NCBI RefSeq assembly: GCF_007556705.1
Contig: NZ_VJOL01000001.1
Location: 1 to 64,000 of the forward strand
Reading direction: 5' to 3'
Source of the DNA: Tepidimonas thermarum
GTDB lineage: Bacteria; Pseudomonadota; Gammaproteobacteria; Burkholderiales; Burkholderiaceae_C
Length of the DNA: 64,000 nt
The position numbers were made by a program, and so were the translations under genes. A model generated the notes under the pieces. It did no database searches. It had not been told where the DNA came from and saw only the letters and a program-made list of their open reading frames with translations. This document shows, piece by piece, positions 42,930 to 50,776 of this stretch (the stretch's first letter is position 1; each line of letters begins with the position of its first letter).

Positions 42930-43835
42930 TTACCCCTGCGGGGCTGTGGTGCGCGCACGAAACGCCTCCTGCACGGACGGTGTGGGCTGCCCCCAGTGGA
43001 CCAGCTCCAGCCGCCCGTCGGCGTGCTCGACCAGGGCGCTCAGGCTCTCCACCCAGTCCCCATCGTTGCAATAGAGCACGCCATCGATCACCCGCAGGGT
43101 CGGGCGGTGGATGTGGCCGCACACCACGCCATCCAGCCCACGCCGGCGCGCCTCGCCGGCCAACGCCTCCTCGAACCGGGAGATGAAATTGACCGCCGAT
43201 TTGACCCGGTGTTTGAGGTACTGCGACAACGACCAATACGGCAGGCCCAGGCGCGCGCGCCAGGAGTTGAGGTGGCGGTTGAAGCGCAGCGCCCATTCGT
43301 ACAGGGTGTCCCCCAAATACGCCAGCCATTTGGCGTACTGAATCACCCCGTCGTACAAGTCCCCGTGGGTGACCCACAGGCGACGCCCGTCGGCGGTGAC
43401 ATGCACGGCTTCCTCCACCACCTCCACCCCGCCGAAGTGGTGACCGCTGAAATGCCGCACAAACTCGTCGTGGTTGCCGGGAATGTAGAACACGCGCCCA
43501 CCCTTGCGCACGCGGCGCAGGATTTTTTGCACCACGTCGGTGTGGCTCTGCGGCCAGTACCAGCGCCGGCGCAACTGCCAGCCGTCGATGATGTCGCCCA
43601 CCAGGTACAGCCGATCGCTTGGGTGTGCCTTGAGAAAGGCGAGCAACGCCTTGGCTTGGCAGCCGGGTGTGCCCAGGTGCACGTCGGAGATGAACACCGC
43701 CCGCAGCCGCTCGCGCCCAAGGGGCAGCGCCTCATCTTCATCCAGGTCGGCGACCCCGGGCCCGCGCATGGCAGCGCCATCCGCGGCTGCGGCTGCCGCC
43801 ACCGCCTTGGCCATCCACGGTGCACGCACGCTCAC
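42930..43835 (-). CDS. plcP: PlcP-like metallophosphoesterase (phospholipase C / LpxH-like family)
   Basis: A 301-residue binuclear metallophosphoesterase. Metal-site motifs occur in order: FISDVHLGT, LVGDIIDGW, PGNHDEF, THGDLYD and CGHIHRP. The stretch YWPQSHTDVVQKILRRVRKG and the FGGVEVVE segment resemble the PlcP proteins of rhizobia and marine bacteria, which remove phospholipid headgroups under phosphate starvation. The same family is often labelled UDP-2,3-diacylglucosamine hydrolase, so that alternative stays open. The GTG start at 43835 overlaps the olsB stop (GTGA). Pairing with an OlsB-like gene and a nearby GT4 gene favours the PlcP reading. Confidence 0.75.
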   Translation of the reverse strand: MSVRAPWMAKAVAAAAAADGAAMRGPGVADLDEDEALPLGRERLRAVFISDVHLGTPGCQAKALLAFLKAHPSDRLYLVGDIIDGWQLRRRWYWPQSHTDVVQKILRRVRKGGRVFYIPGNHDEFVRHFSGHHFGGVEVVEEAVHVTADGRRLWVTHGDLYDGVIQYAKWLAYLGDTLYEWALRFNRHLNSWRARLGLPYWSLSQYLKHRVKSAVNFISRFEEALAGEARRRGLDGVVCGHIHRPTLRVIDGVLYCNDGDWVESLSALVEHADGRLELVHWGQPTPSVQEAFRARTTAPQG

Positions 43836-44689
43836 CCCCCCAGCAGGTGGCGCCGGTAGCGCGCGGGCAGATCGGCCAGCCGCATCATCATCGGCAGGTC
43901 CGCGGTGTTGAAGTCGGGGTCCCACGCGGGCGCACCCATCACTTTGGCGCCCAGCCGCAGATAGCCCTTGACCAGCGCCGGTGGCTCCACCGGCAGCGTG
44001 TCGTCCAGCTCGTGCACCGGCAGCGGCAGGCGCGGCGTCACGTGGTACTCGACCGGCGCCAGGTGCCGCTCGCGCACCTGGCGCCAGATGCTGGCCGCTG
44101 CATGGCCACCGCCGGCCATGCCATGCGGCCCTTCGTGGTGCATGGGGATGCTGGCGCAGCCGATCATGACGTCCAGCCGGTTGCGCGCCATGAAATCGGC
44201 CAACGCGCCCCACAGCGCCATGATGACGCCGCCGTGGCGGTGCTGCGGATGCACGCAGGAGCGGCCCAGCTCCACCATCTGCTCGCGCAGCGCGCGCAGG
44301 CGGGTCAGGTCGAACTCGGTGTCGCTGTAGAAGCAGCCGACGCGCTTGGCCTGCGCCGGGGTGAGCACGCGGTAGGTGCCAATGACCTGGCCGCTGTCGG
44401 CCTCCCGCACCAGCAGGTGCTCGCAATAGTCGTCAAACAGGTCGATGTCGTGCCCCGGCAGCGGCGTGCGCAGGCGCGCGCCCAACTCCTCGGCAAACAC
44501 GGCATACCTCAGGCGCTGGGCGGCGCGCACGTCGTCGAGGTGGCGCGCCCACGCCACGTCCAGGCGCGCCACCGGCGCAGGGGCAGGGTCGGCCAGGCGC
44601 GCTGGAAGCAACCTCCCGGCCGTGCGGCCCGGGGTTTGCCCCCCAACCAGCGTGGACAGGTGCAGCGTGGGCGTCGGAAGCTCTTTCAT
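43832..44689 (-). CDS. olsB: OlsB-like ornithine N-acyltransferase (GNAT)
   Basis: A 285-residue acyltransferase of the hemolysin/OlsB type GNAT group. OlsB joins a 3-hydroxyacyl chain to ornithine, the first step to phosphorus-free ornithine lipids. The core shows RLRYAVFAEELGARL, HLLVREADSGQVIGTYRVL, VELGRSCVHPQHRHGGVIMALW and GCASIPMH, in the family order. Its start at 44689 has GGAG ten bases upstream. plcP overlaps its end by four bases. No olsA acyltransferase is in the window; a separate enzyme must supply the second step if ornithine lipid is the product. Confidence 0.8.
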   Translation of the reverse strand: MKELPTPTLHLSTLVGGQTPGRTAGRLLPARLADPAPAPVARLDVAWARHLDDVRAAQRLRYAVFAEELGARLRTPLPGHDIDLFDDYCEHLLVREADSGQVIGTYRVLTPAQAKRVGCFYSDTEFDLTRLRALREQMVELGRSCVHPQHRHGGVIMALWGALADFMARNRLDVMIGCASIPMHHEGPHGMAGGGHAAASIWRQVRERHLAPVEYHVTPRLPLPVHELDDTLPVEPPALVKGYLRLGAKVMGAPAWDPDFNTADLPMMMRLADLPARYRRHLLGG

Positions 44690-44782: not shown

Positions 44783-44800
44783 ATGTCAACGGCATGACAT
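44783..44800 (-). promoter_or_regulatory. PHO-box-like site upstream of olsB-plcP
   Basis: ATGTCAT-GCCG-TTGACAT on the minus strand (44800-44783), with first half-site very good and the second 5 of 7. It also reads as an inverted repeat ATGTCA/TGACAT. No good -10 stands 10 bases downstream, so the site is weaker evidence than those of pstS and the aminotransferase. Confidence 0.45.
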
Positions 44801-44818
44801 CGCGCGCTGCGCAGCGCG

Positions 44819-44836
44819 CCTTCACGCGCCTGTCAC
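44819..44836 (+). promoter_or_regulatory. Weak PHO-box-like site upstream of lplT
   Basis: CCTTCAC-GCGC-CTGTCAC on the plus strand; the second half-site is perfect, the first 5 of 7. It ends 25 bases before the lplT ATG. The hexamer at the -10 position (CAGAGT) is poor and would make the message nearly leaderless. Confidence 0.3.
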
Positions 44837-44861: not shown

Positions 44862-46109
44862 ATGCCGGCAGGTTTTTTCTGGTTGCTCACGGCGCAGTTC
44901 TGCTCCGGACTGGCCGACCACGCGGTGCTGATCATCGCCATCGCCTATTTGCAGGAGCAGCATCACCCCCTGTGGTGGGCACCGCTGCTCAAGTTCGCGT
45001 TTACCTGGAGCTACGTGCTGCTGGGGCCCGTCGCGGGTGCTTGGGCCGACGCGGTACGCAAAAACACGTTGATGGGATGCATGAATGCGCTCAAGGCCTT
45101 GGCGGTGGTAGGCTTGGTGGCGGGCGCGCATCCACTGGCGGCATTTGCCGTGCTGGGGCTGGCGGCGGCGCTGTACGCGCCGGCCAAGTACGGTTGGATC
45201 ACCGAATCGACTCCCGGGAGCGACCTCGTGGCGGCCAACGGCTGGGTGGAGGTGTCGGTGGTGCTGTCGGTGCTGCTGGGTACGGCGCTGGGCGGCTGGT
45301 GGGTCTCGCCGCTGTGGCAGGCGCCGCACGCGCAGGCGATGCTGGGTCTGCACGGTTGGATCCCGAGCACGGCGCTGCTGCCAGCGTTCGCGGCGGTGCT
45401 GACGCTGTATGGGCTGGCGGCATGGTGCAACCGCCACATCCCTTCGCGTCCGGCGCGGCGCGCGCAATCCCTGCGCGACTGGCCGGCGCTGTGGCCGCGC
45501 TTTTGGCGCGACAACGCCCGGCTGTGGCGTGACCCGCTCGGCGGCCTGTCGCTGGCCGTGACCAGCTGGTTTTGGGGTTTTGCGGCCCTGATGCAGATGG
45601 CCGTGCTGCGCTGGGCCGAGCTGCGGCTGGACCTGCCCTTGTCCCAAGCCGCGTATCTGCAGGCCACGGTCGCGCTGGGCGTGGTGGGCGGCGCGCTGTG
45701 GGTGGCCCGGCGGGTGGCGCTGCGCCAGGCCTGGCGGGTGTTGCCGCTGGGCGTGCTGCTCGGGGCGCTGCTGGCGCTGGCGGTGCATACCCGCGACCTG
45801 GGCGTGGCCGTGCTGGGGCTGGTGGCGATCGGTGCCCTGGGCGGCATGTTGGTGGTGCCCATGAACGCCTTGCTCCAGTACCGCGGTCACCGGCTGCTGC
45901 AGCCGGGGCAGTCGATCGCCATTCAGGGTTTCAACGAGAACGCCAGCGTGCTGGTGATGGTGGGCGGGCTGGCGCTGGCCATGCGCGCCGACTGGCCCCT
46001 GGTGCCGCTGCTGTCCGCGCTGGGGCTGACCATGGCGTTGGGGCTGGCGCTGCTGTGGCGCATCACGCGCCGGTGGCAGGCAGACCGTCCCACCACGGCG
46101 ACGACTTGA
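44862..46109 (+). CDS. lplT: Lysophospholipid transporter LplT
   Basis: A 415-residue major facilitator with about twelve membrane segments. E. coli LplT flips lysophosphatidylethanolamine to the inner leaflet for re-acylation by Aas. The N-terminal FFWLLTAQFCSGLADHAVLI, the AALYAPAKYGWITE motif, and GGMLVVPMNALLQYRGH with QGFNENASV are strongly LplT-like. Here it stands alone, without aas, next to phospholipid-degrading and ornithine-lipid genes. Its 3' end overlaps the GT4 gene by 47 bases tail to tail. Confidence 0.92.
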   Translation: MPAGFFWLLTAQFCSGLADHAVLIIAIAYLQEQHHPLWWAPLLKFAFTWSYVLLGPVAGAWADAVRKNTLMGCMNALKALAVVGLVAGAHPLAAFAVLGLAAALYAPAKYGWITESTPGSDLVAANGWVEVSVVLSVLLGTALGGWWVSPLWQAPHAQAMLGLHGWIPSTALLPAFAAVLTLYGLAAWCNRHIPSRPARRAQSLRDWPALWPRFWRDNARLWRDPLGGLSLAVTSWFWGFAALMQMAVLRWAELRLDLPLSQAAYLQATVALGVVGGALWVARRVALRQAWRVLPLGVLLGALLALAVHTRDLGVAVLGLVAIGALGGMLVVPMNALLQYRGHRLLQPGQSIAIQGFNENASVLVMVGGLALAMRADWPLVPLLSALGLTMALGLALLWRITRRWQADRPTTATT

Positions 46110-47313
46110 CCACCGTTGGGCCCGCAGCGTGGGCCGCGAGCAGGCGCAGCCAGACCGCTTCCGTGCGCTCGATGATGTGCTCCCACCCCCGGTGTTGCAC
46201 GGCGTGCACCGCGCCGGCACGCAAACGCTGCAGCAGCGCGTCGTCGCGCGCCACCGCACGCGCCAGGGCCACGTAGGCGTCGGTGTCCCCCACCGGCGCC
46301 AGCAGGCCGCTGTCGCCGTGCCGCACCACCTCGGCCGCGGCAGCGTAATCAAAGGCCAGCACGGGCAACCCGCTGGCCAGCGCCTCCAGCGTCACGTTGC
46401 CAAAGGTCTCGGTCAGGCTGGGGAAGAGGAGCAAATCGCTGCTGGCGTAGGCCTGCGCCAACGCCTTGCCCACCAATGTGCCCAACAGCACGGCGTGCGG
46501 GCAGCGCTGGGACAGCCAGGCGCGCTGGGGACCGTCGCCCACGACCACCAAGCGCCAGGTGGGTTGCACGGCGCACATGGCGTCGAACGCCGTGGCCAGG
46601 AGCGCCAGGTTTTTTTCCGCGGCCAGCCGACCGACGTAGAGCAGCACCCGCTGGTCGGGCTGGATGCCCCACACCGTGCGCAGTGTGGGGTTGCGCAAGG
46701 CGGGCGTGAAGCGGTCGATGTCCACGCCCCGCTGCACCACGATCAAGCGTTCAAAGCCGGCGGCGCGCAGCTGCTGGCGCAAACCCTCGGTCGGCACCAG
46801 GGTGCAGTCGGCCTGGTTATGAAACCGCCGAAGATACGCCTGCACCGAGCGGCGCAGCCAGCCCACGCCGTAGTGGGCGCTGTAGGCGTCGAAATGGGTG
46901 CGAAAGTCCGTGCTCACGGGCAAGCGCAGCTTGCGCGCGGTGCGCAGCGCCGACCACCCCAGCGGCCCTTCGGTGGCGATGTGCACGATGTCGGGGCGGC
47001 GCCGCATCCACAACGCCTGCAGCGCGCGCTGTGCCGGCAGCCCCATGCGCAGCTGCGGGTAACGCGGGATGGGCACGCCGCGCGTGAGCACCTGCTCCAA
47101 CCCCAGGCGGCTGCCGTCGTGGTCGTAGGCGTCGGCGCCCTGTCGCGGCCGCACCACCTGCACGTCATGGTCGCGTCGCTGCAGGCCCTGGACCATGCGC
47201 TCCATGGTCGTGGCCACGCCGTTGACCTCGGGCGGGAAGGTTTCGGTAACCACCGAAACGCGCAGCAGCGCACGGCGGGGCGGGTAGCTCTCGATCATCA
47301 GGCGTGCATCCAT
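46063..47313 (-). CDS. GT4 glycosyltransferase, candidate lipid glycosyltransferase (Agt-like)
   Basis: A 416-residue GT-B glycosyltransferase of family 4. The acceptor-side N-terminus VSVVTETFPPEVNGVATTMERM and the donor motif ETFGNVTLEALASGLPVLAFD, preceded by VGRLAAEKNL, are typical of enzymes that glycosylate diacylglycerol or phosphatidylinositol, including Agt partners of PlcP. If PlcP frees diacylglycerol, this enzyme could turn it into a phosphorus-free glycolipid; that step is inference. The start is unclear: ATG codons at 47313 and 47298 both lack a Shine-Dalgarno. A PHO-box-like site lies just upstream. Confidence 0.75.
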   Translation of the reverse strand: MDARLMIESYPPRRALLRVSVVTETFPPEVNGVATTMERMVQGLQRRDHDVQVVRPRQGADAYDHDGSRLGLEQVLTRGVPIPRYPQLRMGLPAQRALQALWMRRRPDIVHIATEGPLGWSALRTARKLRLPVSTDFRTHFDAYSAHYGVGWLRRSVQAYLRRFHNQADCTLVPTEGLRQQLRAAGFERLIVVQRGVDIDRFTPALRNPTLRTVWGIQPDQRVLLYVGRLAAEKNLALLATAFDAMCAVQPTWRLVVVGDGPQRAWLSQRCPHAVLLGTLVGKALAQAYASSDLLLFPSLTETFGNVTLEALASGLPVLAFDYAAAAEVVRHGDSGLLAPVGDTDAYVALARAVARDDALLQRLRAGAVHAVQHRGWEHIIERTEAVWLRLLAAHAAGPTVVKSSPWWDGLPATGA

Positions 47314-47336: not shown

Positions 47337-47354
47337 GCGACACGCGTGTGACAA
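47337..47354 (-). promoter_or_regulatory. PHO-box-like site upstream of the GT4 gene
   Basis: TTGTCAC-ACGC-GTGTCGC on the minus strand (47354-47337). First half-site good, second fair. The hexamer 10 bases on is CATGCT, and the start codon at 47313 would then lie at the transcription start. Confidence 0.45.
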
Positions 47355-47372
47355 CCCGGGTTGCGCACGCGG

Positions 47373-47390
47373 GCGTCACCGTCGCGTCAC
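47373..47390 (+). promoter_or_regulatory. PHO-box-like site upstream of the Mpo1-like gene
   Basis: GCGTCAC-CGTC-GCGTCAC on the plus strand, an exact 7-base direct repeat with a 4-base spacer. The hexamer 10 bases on (GAAGAT) is weak; the gene starts 110 bases further. Confidence 0.5.
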
Positions 47391-47499
47391 ACGATGTCCG
47401 GAAGATGACGGCGGCCCGGGTGAGCCACCTGCAAGTCGCTGCCGACGGCCACCTGGCCCCCGCTCCCGCAACTCCCTCACCCTGCAACGAGGACCACCG

Positions 47500-48111
47500 A
47501 TGATGCTGCAACGCTTCATGCAAACGCTGCGCGAGCAGCGCTGGGATGACCACCGCTACTACCACCAAAGCCGCATCAACCAAACGCTGCACCTGATCAG
47601 TGCGATCAGCTTTGTGATCGCCTACGTCTGGCTGTTCAAGGACCCGGCCACCGCAGCCCTGATCGCCTGGGGCATTTCGATGGTGACGCGCCAATCGGGG
47701 CATTTCTTCTTCGAGCCCAAGGGTTACGACCACGTCAACCAGGTCTCGCACGAATACAAGGAGGCGGTCAAGGTCGGCTACAACCTCAAGCGCAAGGTGG
47801 TGCTGATGGGGATCTGGGCAGCCTCGCCCCTGCTGCTGCTGTGGGATCCGACGGCCTTGGGTTGGCTCGAACCCCATACCGATTGGGTGGGGTTTTGGCA
47901 CAACGTGGGCTGGCTGTGGTTGGCCATTGGCGTCGGCGGCCTGCTGGTGCGCGTGCTGCAGCTGTGGGTCGAAAAAGACCTCTACACCGGCGTGGTGTGG
48001 GTGACCAAAATCCTCACCGATCCTTTCCACGACATCAAGCTGTACCACCGCGCACCGCTGTACCTGTTGCGCGGGCAACTGCTCGACCCGGGTCACCCGC
48101 GCGCAGGGTGA
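47500..48111 (+). CDS. Mpo1/DUF962-like small membrane protein
   Basis: A 203-residue protein with about four hydrophobic segments (near 30-47, 50-66, 98-115 and 128-150). Histidine motifs YYHQSRINQTLH before the first segment and RQSGHFFFEPKGYDH after the second recall the Mpo1-like (DUF962) family, whose yeast member is an iron dioxygenase of 2-hydroxy fatty acid oxidation. The match is by eye and loose. Shine-Dalgarno GAGGA precedes the ATG at 47500. The location inside a lipid cluster, with a PHO-box-like repeat upstream, supports a lipid role. Confidence 0.55.
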   Translation: MMLQRFMQTLREQRWDDHRYYHQSRINQTLHLISAISFVIAYVWLFKDPATAALIAWGISMVTRQSGHFFFEPKGYDHVNQVSHEYKEAVKVGYNLKRKVVLMGIWAASPLLLLWDPTALGWLEPHTDWVGFWHNVGWLWLAIGVGGLLVRVLQLWVEKDLYTGVVWVTKILTDPFHDIKLYHRAPLYLLRGQLLDPGHPRAG

Positions 48112-48145: not shown

Positions 48146-49831
48146 TTAGTCGGGCGTGCGAGCGCCCGCGCAGCGCGCCTGCCACCACGCCTGCAGGGTC
48201 TCGCGCAGCAGGCTGCGGCGCACGCGCTGGGCCCAGGCGTCGGCTGGCAGCGTCTCGTCGCGCCACCACCAACCGTCGGCCTGCATGCGCTGGCAGGCCG
48301 CCACGAAGCGCTGCAGGGCCTCCTCGAACGCCGTATCCTCCAGCGCGATCGGGAAGATCAAGCGGCCCGTGCCCACCCAACTCAGCGCCAGGCCGGCGTC
48401 GCGCAGGTAATACTGCAGCAGCCAGTGGTAGCGCCCGGGCTGGGTGTAGAGCACGGTCCAAATAGACGACAGCGCCGCCACCCGCACCGGTACGCCGGCT
48501 TGTGCCAGCGCCGCGTTGAAGCGTTGCTCGCGCGCCTGCCAGCGCGCGTCCAGCCCATCGTAAGCGGCGCGCACCGCCGGCGTGTCCAGCGCGCGCAAAT
48601 ACGCGTTCATCGCCCCCATGACATACGGGTGGGCATTGAAGGTGCCACGCGCCAGGCACAGGTCGGCTGGGCGCTGCGGGCGGTAGCGCTCCATCCAGTG
48701 CCGCTTGCCGCACACCACCCCCACCGGCAACCCGCCCCCCAGCGTCTTGCCGTAGCACACCAAATCCGCTTGCACGCCAAAGTAGGCCTGCGCACCGCCC
48801 GATGCGAGCCGAAACCCGACGAAGACCTCGTCGAAAATCAAGGCGATGCCGGCTTGGGTGCAAACCTCGCGCAGCCGCTGCAGCCACCGGGTGTAGGCGG
48901 CCCGGTCGAACCCCGCTTGGCGGGTGCCACCCACCAGGGTGGAGTCGCTCGGTGCGGCACGGTTGGGATGCAGCGCCTGCAGCGGATTGACCAATACGCA
49001 CGCGATGTCGCGGCGCGTGCGCAGCACGGCCAGGGTGGCCTCGCTCATCTCGGCCAGGGTGTAGGTCTCGCGCGGTGGCAAGGGGTTGCCGGGGCCCGGC
49101 TGCACGTCTTCCCACCAGCCGTGGTAGGCGCCGGCAAAGCGCACCACGTAGCGCCGTCCTGTGTGGTAGCGCGCCAAGCGCACGGCCTGCATCACCGCTT
49201 CGGTGCCGGACATGTGAAAGGTCACATCGTCCATGCCACTGATGGCCCGCAAGCGCGCGACATTGTCCGCCACGCAGGGGTGCAGCCCGCCCAGCACCGG
49301 GCCAAGCGCAGCGCCCAGGTGCGCACCCGCTTCTATCGTGCCCTTGTAAAAATCCAGCCCCAGCACATTGACACCGTAGGAGCCGGTCAGGTCCAGAAAG
49401 CGGTTGTCGTCGAGGTCGATCAACCAGGGCCCTTCGCTGCGCGCCCAAAAGGCACCGATGGGCAATTCCCGCGCCAGCTCGGCAAACGCATAGGGCACGC
49501 GGTAGCGGCCGGTCAGGCGCAAGTCGGGCATGCCCTCGCGCGCCTGCGCGGTCAGCGCCAGCGTGCACGGCGCCGCTGCGCGCAGCCGCTCCCCCAGCGC
49601 GCGCCAGCCCGCCTGGCGCAGCTGTAACACGGCAGGCGGTGCGCCGTCGCAGGCAAAGGCCTGCGGGGCGTGCAGTGCGTAGCCCGGCAGCCAGCGCGCC
49701 AGGCGCTTGGCCCAGCGTTGGTGCCCTGCCAGTGACGGGTGTTTGGCGCGCGACAGTCGCAAACGCTGCCACCCCAGGGGGATGGCAGCCAGCGCGGCGC
49801 CGGCCATCCAACCCAGCGCGTTGTCCACCAT
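48146..49831 (-). CDS. Class III PLP-dependent aminotransferase with N-terminal extension
   Basis: A 561-residue fold-type I enzyme related to glutamate-1-semialdehyde aminomutase and class III aminotransferases. The PLP core shows LTGSYGVNVLG, FHMSGTEAVMQAVRLAR, FAGAYHGWWEDV, IFDEVFVGFR and the PLP lysine in YGKTLGGGLPVGVV. Usual members have about 430 residues; here about 95 extra residues at the N-terminus begin with a hydrophobic, possibly membrane-bound segment (NALGWMAGAALAAIPLGW). It is not the housekeeping HemL by context: it is divergent from psd across 39 bases and has a well-spaced PHO box. Shine-Dalgarno AAGGAT precedes the ATG. Substrate unknown. Confidence 0.75.
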   Translation of the reverse strand: MVDNALGWMAGAALAAIPLGWQRLRLSRAKHPSLAGHQRWAKRLARWLPGYALHAPQAFACDGAPPAVLQLRQAGWRALGERLRAAAPCTLALTAQAREGMPDLRLTGRYRVPYAFAELARELPIGAFWARSEGPWLIDLDDNRFLDLTGSYGVNVLGLDFYKGTIEAGAHLGAALGPVLGGLHPCVADNVARLRAISGMDDVTFHMSGTEAVMQAVRLARYHTGRRYVVRFAGAYHGWWEDVQPGPGNPLPPRETYTLAEMSEATLAVLRTRRDIACVLVNPLQALHPNRAAPSDSTLVGGTRQAGFDRAAYTRWLQRLREVCTQAGIALIFDEVFVGFRLASGGAQAYFGVQADLVCYGKTLGGGLPVGVVCGKRHWMERYRPQRPADLCLARGTFNAHPYVMGAMNAYLRALDTPAVRAAYDGLDARWQAREQRFNAALAQAGVPVRVAALSSIWTVLYTQPGRYHWLLQYYLRDAGLALSWVGTGRLIFPIALEDTAFEEALQRFVAACQRMQADGWWWRDETLPADAWAQRVRRSLLRETLQAWWQARCAGARTPD

Positions 49832-49847
49832 GTCACGATCCTTTCAA
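49830..49847 (+). promoter_or_regulatory. Weak PHO-box-like site upstream of psd
   Basis: ATGTCAC-GATC-CTTTCAA on the plus strand; second half-site 5 of 7. The hexamer 10 bases on is GAAAGT, and psd would be leaderless. Low weight alone. Confidence 0.3.
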
Positions 49848-49861
49848 GTGCCGATGCGAAA

Positions 49862-49895
49862 GTTGTACGCATGGCCCTTGACACCCCTGTGACGA
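49862..49895 (-). promoter_or_regulatory. PHO box and -10 of the aminotransferase gene
   Basis: TCGTCAC-AGGG-GTGTCAA on the minus strand (49895-49878), then exactly 10 bases, then TACAAC (49867-49862). The layout equals that of pstS. The box overlaps the first codons of the divergent psd gene. Confidence 0.6.
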
Positions 49896-50776
49896 ACGCC
49901 TCTGGCCGCCGTGGTTGGCGCCGCTGGCGCGACCGCTTGTGGGCGCACGATACGCTCAACTATTGGCTGTCGCGCCATGTGCCGCGTGCGGCGTTGACGC
50001 ACCTGATGGGCTGGTACAGCCGCATCGACAATCCCGTGCTGACGCGGCTGGCGCTGGCGCTGTGGCGGCGCTGCGCCGACCTCGACCTGAGCGAGGCGGC
50101 ACCGGCCGAATACCGCAGCCTGCGCGATGTCTTCACCCGCGCCCTGCGCCCGGGTGCGCGCCCGTTCGACCCCGATCCCACGGTGCTGTGCAGCCCCTGT
50201 GACGCCATCGTTGGCGCCTGTGGCGACGTGCACGGCACCACCGTTTGGCAGGCCAAGGGCATGCCCTACCGGCTGGAAGAGCTGATGGGCGCAGACGCCG
50301 CGGCGCGGCACGCCAACGGCCGTTACGTGACGCTGCGCCTGACACCGACCATGTACCACCGCTTTCACGCCCCGGCCGATTGGCATGTGCACCGGGTTCG
50401 CTACGTCAGCGGCGATGTCTTCAATGTCAACCCGCCGGCGCTGCGCCGCATCCCCCGGCTGTTTTGCCGCAACGAGCGCGCCCTGATCGAAGGGACGTTG
50501 ACCGACGGCAGTCCCATCGCGCTGGTGCCGGTGGCGGCGATCCTGGTGGCCAGCATCCGGCTGCATTTTTTGGACGTGACGCTGCACCTGCGCTGGCGCG
50601 GCGCGCACGAGCTGCCGTGTGATGCACACCTGCCGCGCGGGCAAGAGCTGGGGTGGTTCGAGCACGGCTCGACGATCTTGTTTTTCGTGCCGGCCCACTG
50701 GCGGCTGGCCGACGGCATCGAGCCGGGGCACACCATCCGTGCCGGGCAGGCGCTGTGGCGCCGAGCGGCCGCCTAA
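49871..50776 (+). CDS. psd: Phosphatidylserine decarboxylase
   Basis: Makes phosphatidylethanolamine from phosphatidylserine at the inner membrane. It has 301 residues. The autocatalytic cleavage motif GST occurs in [11 protein letters not shown] near the C-terminus, the site that generates the pyruvoyl group. [17 protein letters not shown] and the [14 protein letters not shown] region are family signatures. Start at 49871 (MALDTPV) without a clear Shine-Dalgarno. It is divergent from the aminotransferase and overlaps the glmM end by four bases tail to tail. pssA is not in the window. Confidence 0.93.

Follow-up and report, generated by a model that had tools for sequence, protein, structure and literature searches.

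Lipid remodeling by PlcP and Agt under phosphate shortage (PMC4796936 and PMC9239053, in their available sections) is the nearest described system to the locus reported here. We analyzed a 64,000-nt stretch of Tepidimonas thermarum DNA (contig NZ_VJOL01000001.1, positions 1 to 64,000; the window), in which genes for a class III pyridoxal-phosphate (PLP) aminotransferase (AT) and a phosphatidylserine decarboxylase (psd; product PSD2) diverge from each other. A first-pass annotation had read the two as a pair with a PhoB-type promoter, no known pathway, and a possible role in making an unusual amino head group. They are the center of a conserved cassette—GT4, MPO, AT, and PSD2—that is apparently switched on by phosphate shortage, to judge from promoter-like motifs. 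Single parts of the cassette also resemble the Psd–PmtA route, which leads from phosphatidylserine through phosphatidylethanolamine to phosphatidylcholine; the tetrapyrrole enzyme HemL; MycA-type aminotransferase domains of hybrid polyketide synthase/nonribosomal peptide synthetase (PKS/NRPS) systems; and Mpo1, the yeast 2-hydroxy fatty acid dioxygenase.

As in the PlcP–Agt system, a family 4 glycosyltransferase (GT4) and a PlcP-like phosphoesterase share one neighborhood with Pho boxes, with orthology to PlcP and Agt as a candidate assignment. It differs in its constant parts: These are AT, MPO, and PSD2, which go unmentioned in the available sections of PMC4796936 and PMC9239053, whereas a PlcP-like gene lies within 10 kb in just 39/80 relatives' loci. 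Among the titles and abstract openings listed for the open-access literature, none described an aminotransferase–psd–Mpo1 cassette or its lipid, in keeping with the first-pass view that no known pathway applies. In the available text of a 2024 review of bacterial aminolipids (PMC11631085), the words "aminotransferase," "decarboxylase," and "plcP" do not occur. With PlcP–Agt as its nearest relative and no published description found, we therefore read the cassette as a new form of phosphate-controlled lipid remodeling: a known kind of response with a new gene set and, possibly, a new lipid. Its parts in the window are as follows.

48146–49831, minus strand: AT, class III PLP aminotransferase in a clade of its own, with an N-terminal domain of ~120 residues without known family and a mildly hydrophobic first helix.
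49871–50776, plus strand: PSD2, second phosphatidylserine decarboxylase paralog, catalytic residues retained, with Arg137/Asn166 (E. coli numbering) at phosphate-contact positions.
49878–49895, minus strand: PhoB-like box of AT (7-4-7), overlapping the initial psd codons.
49862–49867, minus strand: −10-like hexamer TACAAC, 10 bases below the AT box.
47500–48111, plus strand: MPO, Mpo1-like (PF06127-like) membrane protein, candidate Fe(II) dioxygenase and constant partner of AT.
46063–47310, minus strand: GT4, glycosyltransferase family 4, start codon approximate.
47337–47411, minus strand: two PhoB-box-like sites 5′ of GT4 (47411–47394, 11/14; 47354–47337, 10/14).

The AT reading frame is intact (561 aa), and psd begins with ATG at 49871, so that the 39-base spacing of the first-pass annotation holds. 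Relatives' loci were collected by scanning GTDB genomes with AT as the query and keeping the best 80 of at least 564 stretches that passed a loose confirmation limit, among which other class III enzymes may occur; a gene counted as present near AT if tblastn gave a match of at least 70 bits, and gene starts were set by a scripted rule. The loci are interrelated, and some were retrieved twice. Sources are named for the Sphingomonas plasmid, the Variovorax plasmid, and loci L012–L091; among the matches listed, the closest AT relatives come from Tepidimonas (87–88% identity).

Conservation around AT was nearly complete. PSD2 and MPO each occur in 79/80 loci and GT4 in 77/80, and wherever a copy is missing, the contig stops on that flank, 2 to 859 bases away from AT. 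The proposed adjacency of AT and psd thus stands, but "pair" understates it: At least three partners, MPO, AT, and PSD2, are constant, joined by GT4 in all of the 80 loci that extend far enough. Other neighbors are optional (LplT in 38, the PlcP-like gene in 39, OlsB in 15), and OlsB, which had been put forward together with psd as a co-occurring gene, is thereby rejected as a constant partner. AT is inverted in place in 12/80 loci, making MPO, AT, and PSD2 codirectional with gene order kept. In distant genomes, AT, MPO, and PSD2 stand together in all 21 loci read. A methyltransferase gene is added in 14/14 "alpha-type" loci, by which we mean L116–L128, whose class is inferred, and the Sphingomonas plasmid locus L011. 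In L129–L132, AT, a GT4 fusion, PSD2, and MPO all run in one direction, and the layout of L133–L135 resembles the betaproteobacterial one.

The same association held at wider taxonomic scales. Among 200 genomes of the order, AT was detected in 22, MPO in 23, and PSD2 in 23 (limits E ≤ 1e-60, 1e-10, and 1e-55, respectively), the 22 being nested within the 23. Fisher tests that ignore kinship gave P = 2e-28 for AT versus MPO and for AT versus PSD2, values that overstate the association because the loci are related and some were retrieved twice. Within the genus, AT (at high identity) and MPO share the same 9/11 genomes and are both missing from the other two. Co-occurrence across the order and the 80-locus neighborhoods together rule out a chance adjacency of AT and psd. 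Distribution is patchy, with AT in 25/398 genomes of a phylum-wide sample, and six alpha-type AT rows are nested in a supported, otherwise betaproteobacterial group of the AT tree, which suggests that AT moved between lineages. The 23rd genome of the order (G074) lacks a whole AT: A remnant of ~120 residues runs into a shortened MPO (L140:6022–6954), which a deletion or an assembly error could explain. It is the only broken cassette among the 23/200 genomes that carry its genes.

AT is a class III aminotransferase, as the first-pass annotation had proposed. It matches PF00202 in two stretches (E = 3.4e-32; 112.1 bits against a gathering cut-off of 30.5), and K362 (YGKTLGGG) and D334 (IFDEVF), which we take to be the catalytic lysine and aspartate of the class, are invariant in 39/39 aligned sequences. 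The extension reported at its N terminus exists, at about 115–125 residues relative to solved homologs rather than 95, and its supposed hydrophobicity is mild in the first helix (best 19-residue mean 1.28; 55/135 family rows reach at least 1.6). These ~120 residues matched no Pfam family, and their three Protein Data Bank matches (E about 0.6) are at chance level.

PSD2 is a second Psd with altered residues at the phosphate. It matches PF02666 (E = 1.9e-54) and TIGR00163 (169.5 bits, above the 111.75 cut-off), and it is not the sole psd product of the genome, since another psd, 38% identical to PSD2, lies on contig C66. In a sample of 150 genomes, 9 of the 11 that bear AT list at least two psd genes; G303 and G333, each in ~230 contigs, list one. 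Across 127 PSD2 rows, which contain repeats of the same locus and the window's PSD2 more than once, His144 and His147 are universal, the GST cleavage site is present in 125 with the remaining two rows gapped there, and Asp90 is kept in the five commonest motif forms, which cover 116 rows. Position 137 is Arg and position 166 Asn in all 127, so the Tyr137 and Ser166 contacts are absent. By comparison, Tyr137/Ser166 occur in 29 of 30 other psd loci, taken as the 30 best PF02666 matches rather than a random draw, with one (L170) unreadable. Loci L182–L185 and L190 hold another Psd type, with Arg137 plus Ser166 and the motif RLCP.DYHRYH, present in two copies in genome G214.

In E. coli Psd, contacts to the lipid phosphate come from Tyr137, from the Val167 backbone, and, in one of two structures, from Ser166 (PMC7952604, in its available sections, here and below). 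The Y137F enzyme retains about half its activity, His144 is essential, and a double change at 137/166 causes a much greater loss (PMC7952604). Family-wide, position 137 is Tyr in 85% of sequences and Arg in 15% (PMC7952604). Asn166 was seen only in cassette PSD2, against 34 other readable psd genes. This suggests that PSD2 handles a head group of different make-up close to the phosphate, though a phosphate-free substrate is not proven thereby.

Alpha-type loci associate PSD2 with a putative lipid methyltransferase. The best solved match of the L011 methyltransferase is the phosphatidylethanolamine N-methyltransferase PmtA (E = 4.6e-40), so a Psd with intact catalytic residues and a PmtA-like enzyme recur together as in the Psd–PmtA route. 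The cassette departs from that route in that PSD2 is a second Psd with other phosphate-contact residues, linked with AT and MPO, and in that the alpha-type methyltransferase scores below the PmtA cut-off. The Psd, the PmtA-like methyltransferase, and the neighboring lysophospholipid transporter LplT together indicate lipids, and the first-pass suggestion of a lipid head-group context is thus supported.

PF06127 is matched by each of the 39 MPO proteins in the alignment (E ≤ 0.1; best 1.9e-5). Residues H18, H22, N27, H31, G67, H68, and E72 are invariant (39/39), and the motifs are YH...N..H and GH..FE; we take this pattern to be that of Mpo1, which uses Fe(II) as a dioxygenase of 2-hydroxy acids. 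Its structure model is helical and confident (pLDDT 89.8). A Foldseek search with the model gave 45 matches, none at E of 0.001 or better, and a profile search of solved structures gave a single match at E = 1. MPO shares with Mpo1 the PF06127 matches and, as a candidate likeness, the histidine motifs; it differs in its weak scores, longer C-terminal half, and constant bacterial partner genes.

The upstream site of AT has the geometry of the pstS promoter, as first described. It reads TCGTCAC-AGGG-GTGTCAA, 10 bases, TACAAC; at pstS the layout is TTGTCAC-ACAA-CCGTCAC, 10 bases, TACCAT. Taken alone, the AT box is weak, agreeing with 9/14 consensus positions when 257 sites on the two window strands score at least 9. 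It becomes convincing because the box and its −10-like hexamer survive with minor variation across the genus and its close relatives (L012–L018, L021, and L022), and because such boxes are enriched over relatives. For the latter we scanned 200 bases upstream of each gene for scores of at least 11/14 against the PhoB-box consensus, with shuffles following dinucleotide make-up as controls. Boxes precede GT4 in 57/77 loci (shuffles 2.2%), MPO in 28/78 (1.7%), and AT in 19/80 (1.4%). They are also enriched at LplT (9/38) and OlsB (7/14) and hardly so at the PlcP-like gene (2/38); the matches upstream of PSD2 (12/79) are largely the AT start codon read backwards. An earlier scan of 130 bases with random windows as controls gave the same picture for betaproteobacterial loci. 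In alpha-type loci, AT has boxes in 9/14 (shuffles 0.7%), all scoring at least 12 (for example, CTGTCATGAATCTGTCAG); eight of the nine come from one genus (g200) and the ninth is the Sphingomonas plasmid. The inferred phosphate control of the first-pass annotation is upheld to this extent.

Our main reading, to which we give a probability of about 0.45, is a Pho-controlled lipid pathway that builds an amino head group; we infer both the lipid and the order of steps. At low phosphate, GT4, often with a PlcP-like phospholipase freeing diacylglycerol, would supply a lipid with a polar head. MPO, as an Mpo1-type Fe(II) dioxygenase, might then oxidize this head to a carbonyl; known relatives of MPO act on 2-hydroxy acids. 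A putatively membrane-tethered AT could aminate the carbonyl to give a serine-like head, which PSD2 would decarboxylate to an ethanolamine-like one, and in loci that have the PmtA-like enzyme, N-methylation would yield a choline-like head. This route would end in a membrane lipid that bears an amine and probably spares phosphate as a stand-in for phosphatidylethanolamine or phosphatidylcholine. For GT4, the closest curated model is GlcNAc-phosphatidylglycerol synthase and the third glucosyl-diacylglycerol synthase, both with scores far under cut-off.

Several observations weigh against this pathway. If each family acts on its known type of substrate, the simplest chain is oxidation, amination, decarboxylation, and methylation, and the order of these steps is a guess. 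The nearest relatives of AT act on β-keto or aldehyde substrates, not on α-keto lipids, and Mpo1 is reported to shorten 2-hydroxy acids instead of making keto acids. The Mpo1 likeness is itself weak, the window's MPO scoring 19.1 bits against PF06127, below the 24-bit gathering cut-off. PmtA model NF045882, the best for the L011 methyltransferase, gives 136.4 bits against a cut-off of 390. Having a second psd does not set the cassette apart, because 14 AT-less genomes of the 150 also list two. Nor does Arg137: Of 12 further psd regions, five carried the motif, all with R137 and S166 (read by eye), and Arg could hold the phosphate as well as Tyr. In E. coli Psd, S166A alone causes no significant loss (PMC7952604); since Arg makes up 15% of the family and S166A alone is without effect, the R137/N166 combination bears on the substrate expected of PSD2 more than on its family membership. 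No GT4 turned up close to the cassette in 5/14 alpha-type loci. In alpha-type loci, boxes other than those of AT are few (GT4 2/9, methyltransferase 2/14, MPO 0/14, PSD2 0/14), and in L129–L132 they are rare throughout (AT 1/4, MPO 1/4, GT4 and PSD2 none).

The same genes could instead remove head groups, an alternative we consider unlikely. PSD2 would make phosphatidylethanolamine from phosphatidylserine, AT would strip its amine as a transaminase or phospho-lyase, MPO would oxidize the remainder, and GT4 would take the lipid as a glycolipid precursor, saving both phosphate and nitrogen. Pho control, the PlcP-like gene within 10 kb in 39/80 loci, and GT4 next door would all fit, and some class III enzymes do act on phosphoethanolamine. 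However, the PmtA-like methyltransferase of alpha-type loci suggests building up, an extra Psd with changed phosphate-contact residues suggests a new substrate, and AT is nearest to HemL and MycA types among the families compared directly.

The affinities of AT itself raise a second alternative. By sequence, the solved structure closest to it is that of the MycA aminotransferase domain (E = 1.1e-45), with HemL next, and the AlphaFold2 model (mean pLDDT 82.6) likewise finds this domain as its best Foldseek match (E = 2.5e-26). In a maximum-likelihood tree of 42 rows, seven of them flagged as long-branched and one class III row (C38, first copy) excluded as a wrong-frame match, 34 AT rows form one clade (support 100/99) apart from HemL; the nearest branch, with moderate support (88/71), is a PKS aminotransferase domain. 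The latter lies in a PKS/NRPS cluster on a Variovorax sp. WDL1 plasmid (NZ_LR594691; L151:8431–15387) and is 28% identical to AT. AT could accordingly work on acyl chains as MycA does, converting a β-ketoacyl-carrier protein to its β-aminoacyl form for an amino fatty acid lipid, while PSD2 and MPO serve other lipid parts; the family of MPO acts on hydroxylated fatty acids. We think this quite unlikely: No carrier protein or ketosynthase was recognized among genes common to distant loci (reading frames below 90 aa were not clustered), and the constant PSD2 and the PmtA-like partner would be left unexplained. AT is free-standing, unlike MycA-type domains, and has its own N-terminal domain and adjoining lipid genes.

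That AT serves tetrapyrrole synthesis as another HemL, beside psd by chance, is most improbable on sequence grounds: HemL models are its best NCBIfam matches (174.5 and 167.6 bits) and it shares the class III fold with 31–35% identity over the catalytic part, but its TIGR00713 score of 167.6 is far under the 527.3-bit cut-off, it has an extra N-terminal domain and a separate clade, PSD2 adjoins it in 79/80 loci, and the genome's own HemL (586.4 bits) lies on another contig. At the level of sequence, then, neither condition named by the first-pass annotation as counting against its reading applies, the genome having a separate hemL and the neighborhood being kept in relatives.

In the window, the cassette stands next to a phosphate locus comprising phoR, phoB, phoU, pstBACS, ppx, and ppk (reading frames read by eye). 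From there the order is PlcP/LpxH-like, OlsB-like, LplT, GT4, MPO, AT, and psd, followed by glmM, folP, and ftsH (read by eye). The remaining neighbors are as follows.

44862–46109, plus strand: lplT, lysophospholipid transporter (NF008397, 399.4 bits against a cut-off of 297), a frequent, nonconstant neighbor.
43832–44689, minus strand: ornithine N-acyltransferase resembling OlsB (159.1 bits where the cut-off is 350), an occasional neighbor.
42930–43823, minus strand: PlcP/LpxH-like calcineurin-type phosphoesterase, below both LpxH cut-offs and labeled PlcP from context, a frequent neighbor.

Between the OlsB-like gene and lplT, PhoB-box-like sites (10–11/14, both strands) at 44783–44836 suggest that these two genes also belong to the Pho regulon.

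Some distant loci have distinctive surroundings. GT4 is fused to an N-terminal stretch of ~500 residues at L131:2344–5022, L130:3674–6355, and L132:6107–8983; in L131 the stretch has 519 residues and matched no Pfam family at E up to 1. By eye, its motifs HCHD and GG(T/S)DDH resemble a metal-dependent PHP-type phosphoesterase, a likeness that is unproven. Directly downstream of the cassette, L130:8101–9858 encodes a genuine ornithine lipid synthase, OlsF, whose 816.1 bits clear the cut-off of 620. The Sphingomonas parapaucimobilis plasmid (NZ_CP155753, 385 kb; L011:1–9208) carries the cassette a few kilobases from genes for an acyl carrier protein, a class I/II aminotransferase whose setting suggests an Spt-like enzyme, lptF, lptG, a desaturase, and an N-acetyltransferase, which look like a sphingolipid gene set. 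A sphingolipid role was dropped because tblastn found spt-like, acp, N-acetyltransferase, and lptFG genes in 0/20 other distant loci.

Stated in its most specific form, the amino head-group pathway would mean that several proteobacterial lineages, when starved of phosphate, make a phosphorus-free stand-in for phosphatidylethanolamine or, with the PmtA-like enzyme, for phosphatidylcholine, through Mpo1-like oxidation, a membrane transaminase, and a Psd retuned away from phosphate; in that full form we regard it as doubtful. Phosphate-sparing lipids influence how bacteria live where waters and soils are poor, and mass spectrometry detects some lipids for which no genes are known. A compact gene set with a predicted inducing condition could allow such an unknown lipid to be tied to its genes, and carriers include named strains of Tepidimonas, Tepidicella, Malikia, Variovorax, Roseateles, Polynucleobacter, and Sphingomonas. 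A Psd subfamily that differs at both side-chain phosphate contacts of the E. coli enzyme also offers a probe of the substrate range of pyruvoyl decarboxylases.

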